Source: Mesorhizobium sp. ZC-5 (lineage in GTDB: Bacteria > Pseudomonadota > Alphaproteobacteria > Rhizobiales > Rhizobiaceae). From it: DNA of 64,000 nt. Below, one piece after another: positions 52,282 through 53,267 of the stretch. The DNA lies in the NCBI RefSeq assembly GCF_025753855.1, contig NZ_JAOWPT010000002.1:62001-126000 (forward strand), given 5' to 3'. Position numbers and translations under genes: made by a program. Positions within the stretch are counted from its first letter, which is position 1. Each line of letters begins with the position of its first letter. A model generated the notes under the pieces. It ran no database searches and was not told the DNA's origin. It worked only from the letters and a program-made list of their open reading frames with translations.

Positions 52282-52449
52282 ATGAAATACCGTCGGAAGA
52301 ATGGCAGTGACACTTGGCATTTCTGCACGAATTGCAGCAAATGGCCGACTAGTGATTACGTCGAACGCGACTCCAAGCCTACTACAGGCGAGTTGGACAA
52401 CGAGTGTCAGGCGAAAGAAAACAACGGCACCTGCAGCAAGAAGCAATAG
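52282..52449 (+). CDS. CxxC microprotein (55 aa)
   Basis: A 55-residue ORF with ATG at 52282 and GGGGAG 6 bp upstream. It contains WHFCTNCSKWP (a CxxC pair), SKPTTGELDNECQAKE and a final NGTCSKK, so four Cys arranged as C-x2-C...C...C, which could bind zinc. Small proteins with a TWHxCTNC...PTxGELxNxC pattern recur in rhizobia as I remember them, with no assigned role. It has its own promoter-like element and leader hairpin. Confidence 0.7.
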   Translation: MKYRRKNGSDTWHFCTNCSKWPTSDYVERDSKPTTGELDNECQAKENNGTCSKKQ

Positions 52450-52574
52450 CACAACCGGTGGCTGCATCGCCTCGCCGCTCTTCGTCTCCTGCATGAGAGC
52501 GATCGCCTGTGTGGCTTTTTTGCACTTGCGAAAGCGGGCGAAGCACCCCAAGTTTGGGGCGTGTTCAACAGATC

Positions 52575-52589
52575 GAAAGGAGGTGATCC
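52575..52589 (+). promoter_or_regulatory. 15-nt full-length anti-SD complement (extended Shine-Dalgarno)
   Basis: GAAAGGAGGTGATCC is the exact reverse complement of the conserved alphaproteobacterial 16S 3' end GGATCACCTCCTTTC (from memory). It ends one base before the ATG at 52591; the GGAGG core is 7 bp from the ATG, an ideal spacing. A typical Shine-Dalgarno helix is 4-7 bp, so this is exceptional. Confidence 0.8.
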
Positions 52590-52590
52590 G

Positions 52591-52662
52591 ATGTCGAGTG
52601 ATTTCGTTTTCCAGAACGTGGCCTCAGCGGATTGCACTTTCGGGAAGCAGTCTTCCCTTTAA
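52591..52662 (+). CDS. 23-codon micro-ORF behind the extended SD
   Basis: ATG at 52591 to TAA at 52660-52662, encoding MSSDFVFQNVAS followed by ADCTFGKQSSL. The last codons form a hairpin GGGAAG-CAGT-CTTCCC (52642-52657). No similar protein is recognised. The downstream DNA has a UUCG-capped hairpin and a terminator, and the next gene is on the opposite strand, so it is not a leader of any gene in the window. It may be a real peptide or a ribosome-binding RNA element; translation is likely given the SD but not shown. Confidence 0.5.
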   Translation: MSSDFVFQNVASADCTFGKQSSL

Positions 52663-52672
52663 GGCGCGAGAT

Positions 52673-52712
52673 GCGCGGCTTGTGACCTTCGGGTCATAGC
52701 CAGAGGCCGCGC
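52673..52712 (+). ncRNA. UUCG tetraloop hairpin in the micro-ORF transcript
   Basis: TGACC-TTCG-GGTCA (52683-52696) is a classical C(UUCG)G-capped stem. GGCT/AGCC (52677-52680 with 52698-52701) extends it, and GCGCGGC/GCCGCGC (52673-52679 with 52706-52712) offers an outer, partly competing pairing. Together with the terminator downstream this suggests a stable structured RNA end. Confidence 0.5.
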
Positions 52713-52727
52713 CATGGACGGAAACAC

Positions 52728-52761
52728 GGAAGGCCGTTTCTCGAAAGGGAAGCGGCCTTTT
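52728..52761 (+). terminator. Intrinsic terminator of the micro-ORF transcript
   Basis: AAGGCCGTTTC (52730-52740) pairs with GAAGCGGCCTT (52749-52759) in an 11-bp stem with one G-T wobble, and is followed by a TTTT run (52758-52761). It would end a transcript of about 200-250 nt starting upstream of the micro-ORF. Confidence 0.8.
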
Positions 52762-52766
52762 CCTTT

Positions 52767-52795
52767 GTCCACGATCATGGCCTTGGATCGTGGAC
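52767..52795. repeat. 10-bp inverted repeat GTCCACGATC / GATCGTGGAC
   Basis: Perfect arms at 52767-52776 and 52786-52795 with a 9-nt spacer, between the micro-ORF terminator and the end of the nuclease gene. No T run follows on either strand, so it is not a simple intrinsic terminator; it may be a processing or protein site. Confidence 0.55.
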
Positions 52796-52802
52796 CGTAC
52801 TT

Positions 52803-53267
52803 CTAATCGCACCAACCGGCACGCCGTCCGCCTTTGTAGGGCCGTACCAGCGCCTGCTCGAGCATCTGGTCGGCGACAAACTCACCCGCCTGTGTTTCCA
52901 CGTCGGCCAGCACCCTGCCGTAATATTTGGCGCTGCCTATGTTGGAGATCCGAACATTTGTACCGATCAGGTCGGCAAGCGCCCTGCGCGCCTTTAGTGC
53001 CGCGGCGTGCTCGGCCTCACAGCGGCTCTTCATCTCCGGCGCATCGATGCCGCGGACCCTGATGTTGACTTCAATCACCTGGCCCGGCCAGACATGCGCC
53101 TCGGCCATGAACGTGTCGCCATCGAGCACGTTCAGCACTGTCGCTTCGACAGGACCTTCAAAATTGCCGCGCCGTTTGGCTTCGCCAGATCCCGCGAACA
53201 GCACGGAAACCGCTACGGCCAGGATGGCCGCGAGCCTCAACCTTGCACGAGATGCGTTCGAACTCAT
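52803..53267 (-). CDS. Secreted thermonuclease-like (SNase domain) protein
   Basis: A 154-residue exported protein. Signal peptide LRLAAILAVAVSVLFAGSGEA, then the staphylococcal nuclease fold: VEATVLNVLDGDTFMAEA (metal-binding D residues), VNIRVRGIDAPEMKSRCEAE (Arg and Glu), YYGRVLADV and a C-terminal cysteine. This is the usual order of catalytic residues in the family. It would degrade nucleic acid outside the cytoplasm. Monocistronic. Confidence 0.9.
   Translation of the reverse strand: MSSNASRARLRLAAILAVAVSVLFAGSGEAKRRGNFEGPVEATVLNVLDGDTFMAEAHVWPGQVIEVNIRVRGIDAPEMKSRCEAEHAAALKARRALADLIGTNVRISNIGSAKYYGRVLADVETQAGEFVADQMLEQALVRPYKGGRRAGWCD

Follow-up and report, generated by a model that had tools for sequence, protein, structure and literature searches.

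A probable stand-alone small mRNA of the rre/CC2171 type in Mesorhizobium sp. ZC-5 in which being read seems conserved and the peptide does not

The window, by which we mean the whole 64,000-nucleotide stretch of Mesorhizobium sp. ZC-5 DNA that was analysed (contig NZ_JAOWPT010000002.1, positions 62,001 to 126,000), probably encodes a stand-alone small mRNA, or structured RNA, of the rre/CC2171 type, a kind already known in alphaproteobacteria. As far as comparison of sequences can tell, what is conserved in this RNA seems to be that its short open reading frame is read, and not the peptide that results. We think it probable that it is a small mRNA that masks itself and is opened by ribosomes, in which translation matters and the peptide does not.

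Organization of the locus

The RNA is predicted to be about 205 nt long (52561–52766, + strand), as judged from a GTGTTCAAC block at the predicted transcription start, the terminator and the fold. Its predicted promoter, with a −35 of CTTGCG (52525–52530) and a −10 of CAAGTT (52549–52554), is inferred from blocks shared by 89 loci found by DNA similarity in the family: a TTG lies 40–55 bases upstream of the Shine-Dalgarno sequence (SD) in 88 of them, and in an anchored profile of all 89 the −35 block is kept at 46–79% per position, the −10 block at 57–72% at most positions, and the GTGTTCAAC block at 70–94% per position. Direct reading gives the extended SD as GAAAGGAGGTGATCC (52575–52589), with 15 Watson-Crick pairs to the 16S tail and a possible G-U at G52590, followed by ATG (52591–52593) and 23 sense codons, MSSDFVFQNVASADCTFGKQSSL, that end in TAA at 52660–52662 (sORF 52591–52662). 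Codons 3–8 contain the 5′ strand of a predicted helix, P1 (GUG-UUUCG-UCCA, 52598–52613), whose 3′ strand (UGGA-CGGAA-A-CAC, 52715–52727) is located directly 5′ of the terminator; both strands were placed from the MFE fold and pair counts, and the 5′ strand also from tests of cognate against swapped strands. Further into the ORF are a putative internal anti-SD, CGGAUUGC-A-CUUUCG (52628–52642), which imitates the 16S tail, is complementary to 52574–52590 and was placed from RNAalifold and pair counts on the alignment A1 (described below), and a hairpin over the last codons, P2 (GGGAAG-CAGU-CUUCCC, 52642–52657). To the 3′ side of the ORF, inverted repeats and A1 pair counts define the hairpin P3/P4 (52673–52712), in which GCGCGGC/GCCGCGC encloses GTGACC-UUCG-GGTCAT (52682–52697) with its UUCG tetraloop. 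The intrinsic terminator (52730–52768) has arms at 52730–52740 and 52749–52759 that are 91% complementary, followed by TTTTCCTTT, and is recognizable also by comparison within the family. The SD with its start codon, the 23 codons, the hairpin over the last of them, the UUCG-capped stem and the terminator had all been listed in the initial annotation, and each is present as described there.

Two flanking elements that had been listed with them were rejected as parts of the RNA. The upstream hairpin CCCCAA-GT-TTGGGG exists, one base away from where it had been placed (arms 52546–52551 and 52554–52559), and lies outside the RNA, overlapping the predicted −10; those relatives whose alignments were inspected do not have it. 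The 10-bp inverted repeat is likewise real (52767–52776 and 52786–52795); it lies beyond the terminator and between convergent genes, with the whole repeat (52767–52795) sitting between the terminator of the RNA and the stop of a small convergent gene on the − strand (52803–53267) that by eye has the look of a secreted staphylococcal nuclease. On the left side, a 55-codon + strand ORF (52282–52449, MKYRRKNGSDTWHFCTNCSKW..) is located between an acetyl-CoA-synthetase-like gene and the small RNA, and a T run at 52516–52521 follows weak inverted repeats.

A small ORF with overlapping hairpins and a terminator has the appearance of an attenuator, and the RNA could in principle regulate a gene next to it, as its leader peptide or attenuator. 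However, the next downstream genes are on the opposite strand, as judged by eye from their ORFs and from the GC of codon positions, and there is no convincing + strand gene downstream before 55099, the intervening + strand ORFs opposing − strand genes and being judged spurious by eye. Upstream neighbours differ between lineages, and also between two loci of one genus (L002 and L003), and no conserved operon partner across lineages was found among the 19 loci examined. In addition, MH_s33, a Mesorhizobium RNA with the same Rfam annotation, is listed as a separate intergenic transcript (PMC5596092, Table 1). An attenuator is therefore scarcely credible, and the initial annotation had been right to set a leader peptide aside. 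With its promoter-like blocks, its terminator, lineage-variable upstream neighbours and a transcribed Mesorhizobium RNA of like annotation, the locus is best read as a stand-alone gene, as had been proposed. Within lineages neighbours are shared, in a clustering that has antisense ORFs mixed in, and the convergent − strand genes downstream are partly common to L002, L003 and L066. At both L106 (7030–7100) and L117 (3346–3416, −), a tRNA gene is a close neighbour of the Bradyrhizobium rre locus and is encoded on the other strand.

Relatives and the extended SD

The initial annotation could not name a family, while allowing that the RNA might already be catalogued in rhizobial surveys. A name is in fact available, Rfam CC2171 or the rre-type small mRNAs, and an RNA annotated as CC2171 appears in a Mesorhizobium survey (PMC5596092, Table 1). 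In a permissive Rfam scan 52567–52758 matches CC2171 (RF01867) with 44.1 bits (E 3.1e-7), which is under the gathering score of 75, and we therefore call the RNA a homologue, and not a member, of the curated family. The alignment is full-length, with model positions 1–159 aligned to 52567–52758, and includes the 5′ AUCGAAAGGAGGUGAUCC block and the terminator; the model's helix between the first codons and the pre-terminator segment is present in kind, with the model's own pairs partly broken in the window. RF01867 matches 38 of 61 genomes of the family at E ≤ 0.001 and none of the 61 over the cut-off, which is exceeded by a Caulobacter control and by 4 of 20 related loci.

The distribution is broad. 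By DNA similarity, 52540–52800 matches 89 of 151 genomes of the family, and across the order 126 of 297 genomes carry the motif AAAGGAGGTGATCCNDTG, each a single time and always with ATG or GTG after it; a backward control for this motif gave a single match. One of the 126 matches (L277, genome G210) is a false positive that precedes a glutathione-S-transferase-like gene. A looser SD pattern is found in 59 of 289 genomes of the class; elsewhere in the phylum, 6 of 149 genomes have it. Among named genomes a scan yielded at least 119 stretches with the motif, and of 80 listed titles, classed by name, 75 are alphaproteobacterial, three are given as Proteobacteria only and two are from other groups.

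The extended SD had been put forward as the hallmark of the RNA, and this is upheld. The alphaproteobacterial 16S tail, GGCTGGATCACCTCCTTTCT, was checked on a Phyllobacterium plasmid, where it closes a 16S gene that Rfam confirms; no 16S gene was found in the window's own genome assembly (G000), and the 16S-tail pattern was found in none of the 12 other genomes searched. Pairing of the SD to the full 16S tail is predicted at about −30 kcal/mol. The 13-mer AAAGGAGGTGATC occurs once in the 6.3-Mb genome, for which our own arithmetic with equal base frequencies gives a chance expectation of about 0.2 (about 0.01 for the 15-mer), and it is conservation, rather than this count, that is telling. A second, relaxed SD match in the same genome (C18) was set aside, being without an rre-like short ORF and by eye within coding sequence. 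The SD is exact in 63 of the 89 family loci, which were found by DNA similarity; most loci outside the family were gathered by the exact motif, and SD variation is therefore underestimated among them. Over 270 loci, 24 of 30 substitutions in the SD keep the 16S pairing by G-U, and the six that break it all fall at the two end positions, so that 16S pairing also constrains the SD.

The comparisons that follow use defined sets of loci, among which relatedness is only partly controlled and clade names are inferred from peptide patterns. For A1 the 49 closer loci were picked by hand from the 89 of the family, and loci with the hairpin in another frame are not among them. A duplicate of the window (L001) and the false positive L277 were left out of the P2-frame comparison and the P1 permutation. 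Along with these two, six loci with long or atypical ORFs (L103, L142, L145, L077, L134 and L158) were left out of the anti-SD enrichment, synonymous, neighbour-clustering, P1 swap, phase, longest-helix, SD-substitution and extra-A comparisons, as were two loci with an extra-A SD (L232 and L236) for the last two of these. A terminator 100–215 nt from the SD was required in the P1 tests, the anti-SD enrichment and the ordinary-SD sets (e.g. 258 of 278 loci in the P1 permutation).

Reading frame and conserved structure

Several patterns concern the reading frame. First, the RTG lies exactly one base 3′ of the SD, and there is no TTG among the 126 exact-motif matches, though the pattern allowed TTG. 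Secondly, the start-to-loop distance is in phases 0, 1 and 2 in 63, 0 and 16, respectively, of the 79 family loci (of 89) with a scorable loop, and the loop-to-terminator distance in 24, 25 and 30 of the same loci. Thirdly, all 11 gap runs in A1 between the start and the end of P2 are 3 nt long, and those 3′ of the ORF are mostly 1 nt. The stop is also kept, its codon interchanging among TAA, TAG and TGA, and 26 of 28 complete ORFs in the Sphingomonadales have 18 codons; the Rhodobacteraceae group was defined partly by an 18-codon length, and its constancy is thus no evidence.

A conserved start, a frame that is mostly kept, indels in threes and exchange among stop codons at constant length in the Sphingomonadales would suit a micropeptide gene, in which selection acts on the peptide and the strong SD serves to express it. 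The codon differences argue otherwise. The synonymous fraction of single-base codon differences is close to what neutrality predicts in all 9 sets of one comparison and both sets of a second, with the largest excess being 0.33 against 0.26 expected (the counts are pairwise, not independent, and stand without a formal test); third codon positions are the most variable in no set, and the peptides look unrelated between lineages. Moreover, P2 is kept while the frame over it shifts from EQPL to RSSL, is placed on or after the stop in the Rhodobacteraceae, and is carried in another phase by 16 of the 79 family loci. At L193, L202, L203, L207, L209, L215 and similar loci P2 is in another frame and the ORF ends in RSSL* inside its 3′ arm; these loci are a natural frame change that kept the RNA. 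The micropeptide that the initial annotation had entertained is thus, as a selected product, not borne out by the near-neutral fractions, and we regard it as highly improbable.

It is also conceivable, although unlikely, that the RNA is a trans-acting, base-pairing non-coding sRNA whose ORF is unused. Rfam types RF01867 as 'Gene; sRNA', MH_s33 is listed as an sRNA in Mesorhizobium (PMC5596092, Table 1), and the fold is strong (see below). Ribosome profiling in Caulobacter found most ncRNAs to be untranslated (PMC4117421, the available part of which does not mention CC2171), and this counts against translation here, unless CC2171 is an exception. An unused ORF, however, fits poorly with indels that mostly preserve the frame, a conserved stop, and an RTG that is fixed one base past the SD and is never TTG.

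The reading that we prefer, in which the ORF is read within a structured RNA, draws also on conserved stems, P2 and P1, which according to the initial annotation would speak for an RNA. The RNA at 52560–52766 folds with −94.3 kcal/mol (z −5.29, with 0 of 200 shuffles as good), and this MFE forms P1 and leaves the SD mostly open. Comparison supports the conservation of P2, a predicted hairpin with a CARY loop being found in 80 of 89 family loci, 14 of 18 Rhodobacteraceae loci and 59 of 76 other MSS-type loci, where shuffled sequences would be expected to give 0.1, 0.0 and 0.0, respectively; in A1, six of its seven pairs have two-sided changes. Covariation over the whole structure in A1 (49 of the 89 family loci) is 0.244, compared to 0.178 when shuffled and at most 0.116 when slid, for a structure derived from the same sequences that it was scored on.

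Comparison also supports the predicted helix P1 as conserved in the window's and the CC2171-type lineages. Among 245 distinct sequences, cognate P1 strands have a mean of −14.9 versus −12.9 when permuted within clades, and 0 of 2000 permutations reach the observed value; these tests hold clades together, with finer relatedness uncorrected. P1 has a probability above 0.5 in 103 of 138 MSS-type RNAs and in 60 of 138 with the 3′ tails swapped inside clades, in 45 of 60 MSH-type RNAs (27 of 60 swapped), and in 14 of 28 from Sphingomonadales (10 of 28 swapped), and such support is absent in Rhodobacteraceae (6 of 18, the same as in the swap control) and Bradyrhizobium (0 of 7). The longest exact helix favours cognate over swapped strands in MSS-type (43% vs 28%) and MSH-type RNAs (84% vs 60%); the corresponding values are 91% vs 91% in Sphingomonadales, 18% vs 19% in Rhodobacteraceae and 14% vs 9% in Bradyrhizobium. 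Compensated versions of P1 include CAUUGUC/GACAAUG, CAUUGCC/GGCAAUG and CAUCGUU/GACGAUG. In A1, two-sided changes are seen in 1 of its 12 pairs, located in the weakest part of P1.

Internal anti-SD, proposed mechanism and known systems

Comparison supports a predicted SD:anti-SD pairing in three of five lineages. RNAalifold on A1 pairs the 3′ half of the SD with CGGAUYGCC inside the ORF; in these 49 loci (of 89 in the family) the 8 pairs are formed in 98.2% of cells, and Cys/Arg codon changes in the anti-SD preserve this pairing. Relative to shuffled bodies, SD-complementary stretches have z −1.45 in MSS-type, −1.53 in Rhodobacteraceae and −1.52 in Bradyrhizobium RNAs; the enrichment is weak in CC2171-type RNAs (z −0.48) and absent in Sphingomonadales (z −0.21). 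The window's own internal anti-SD carries a mismatch, A52636, and has no excess over shuffles (−12.2 vs −12.2; −16.2 with its flank). Loci of Sphingomonadales, L064, L079 and L087 among them, have on the 3′ side of the ORF a GC-rich hairpin with a CACUUCC-like loop, possibly an anti-SD presented in a loop.

A variant SD with an extra A, GAAAGGAAGGTGATCC, is present in 4 of 6 inspected genomes that have a weak Rfam match but no DNA match, and also at L232 and L236; overall it is found in 47 of 347 family genomes from 16 genera, once per genome, and may reflect a single ancestral change passed on within one clade. Every one of the 47 carries CTTCC, and none carries CTCC, in the 25 nt that follow the stop; at this position L234, whose SD is of ordinary length, reads CACCTCC. 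The GGAAGGUG complement is present in 35 of 47 extra-A RNAs versus 0 of 147 MSS-type and 0 of 18 Rhodobacteraceae RNAs with an ordinary SD, and the GGAGGUG complement in 1 of 47 versus 22 of 147 and 17 of 18, respectively. In 46 of 47 extra-A RNAs the segment behind the stop has its own SD as the better pairing partner; over the whole body, where the own SD was compared with the other SD type, this preference is weaker (38 of 47 extra-A, 93 of 147 ordinary MSS-type and 18 of 18 Rhodobacteraceae RNAs). Because the extra A weakens 16S pairing (from −30.8 to −23.3), the matched CUUCC is best explained by intramolecular pairing, and its presence in 47 of 47, the strongest evidence obtained, suggests that the super-long SD also pairs inside such RNAs (weakly in the window's RNA). 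In the MFE of one extra-A member (L343) P1 is formed and the SD helix is not. No earlier account of an internal anti-SD or of the extra-A pair was found in the open-access literature; Hahn et al. 2017 and Landt et al. 2008 may cover part of it.

In the mechanism that we propose, a promoter at about 52525–52554 would give rise to the RNA of about 205 nt, ending at the terminator (52730–52768). The 15-nt SD, one base before the start codon, would bind the whole 16S tail, or alternatively would pair with the internal imitation of that tail, which the window's lineage carries within the second half of its ORF and others directly past the stop codon; the first codons would pair with the pre-terminator segment in P1 and the last codons would form P2. 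Because initiation and elongation must open these helices, the RNA would be closed when free of ribosomes and open when bound by them, and the conserved trait would be that the ORF is bound and read, and not its peptide. P1 and the SD:anti-SD helix cross each other, which implies either a pseudoknot or mutual exclusion. We infer that 30S binding would compete with the internal anti-SD, that the RNA would thereby be responsive to free ribosomes, and that its stability would be set by its own translation; the initial proposal of a 30S-capturing or dual-function RNA is plausible. More tentatively, and with considerable doubt, we speculate that the SD owes its great length to competition with the internal mimic of the 16S tail, and that the RNA is a sensor of ribosome availability, one per genome across Alphaproteobacteria. 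Plentiful free 30S subunits would then displace the internal anti-SD and the meaningless ORF would be read, and with scarce 30S the closed RNA would persist and act; the act of translation would be selected and the peptide would drift freely.

On these comparisons, the CC2171 sRNA of Rfam and the small mRNAs of the rre type are likely to be variants of a single gene of alphaproteobacteria. The comparisons also suggest a reason for an SD that is fully complementary to the 16S tail, and offer a testable case in which translation itself would be conserved rather than the peptide. If the competition model holds, the RNA would be a direct gauge of free ribosomes.

Small mRNAs of the rre type have at least 16 nt of complementarity to the 16S 3′ end before an sORF, are stand-alone, bind 30S and are weakly translated. 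The same SD motif recovers loci with a 14-codon VSYLKRCHLAGIAR ORF in Bradyrhizobium and with an 18-codon VSRVILERGVGTV.. ORF in Rhodobacteraceae, which we take to be rreB and rreR, respectively. Both are reportedly described by Hahn et al. in 2017 (RNA Biol 14:1353) as stand-alone small mRNAs whose SD is complementary to the 16S tail over its full length, and rreB is said to co-sediment with 30S. The window's RNA differs from these in having 23 codons (14 in rreB), an ATG instead of a GTG start, 15 and not 17 SD pairs (15 Watson-Crick pairs and one possible G-U, beside the 16 nt or more of the rre type), a predicted P1 helix, and a putative anti-SD inside the ORF. With CC2171 (RF01867) it shares the 5′ CAAC block, the extended SD one base before an RTG, the terminator, and predicted pairing between the first codons and the stretch ahead of that terminator; it differs in the sequence and register of P1 (GUG-UUUCG in the window, CAUUGUC in CC2171), and it carries a P2 hairpin of the GGAG-CARY-CUC type.

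Within the genus, MH_s33 of Mesorhizobium huakuii 7653R is annotated as RF01867 and is an intergenic, 215-nt RNA-seq transcript (PMC5596092, Table 1). It is likened to the window's RNA via this annotation and not via its sequence; the available part of that paper does not include it among the nine Northern-tested RNAs and gives no ORF, SD or mechanism for it (PMC5596092). Two Mesorhizobium contigs, L066 and L129, have a 23-codon ORF that differs from the window's in the last residue. Further afield, the extended SD initiation sites of Staphylococcus aureus also have long SD pairing near the start codon (PMC13009471); in the available part of that work this is a general feature of initiation, whereas here it marks a single specialized RNA in each genome, which also has a putative internal anti-SD.
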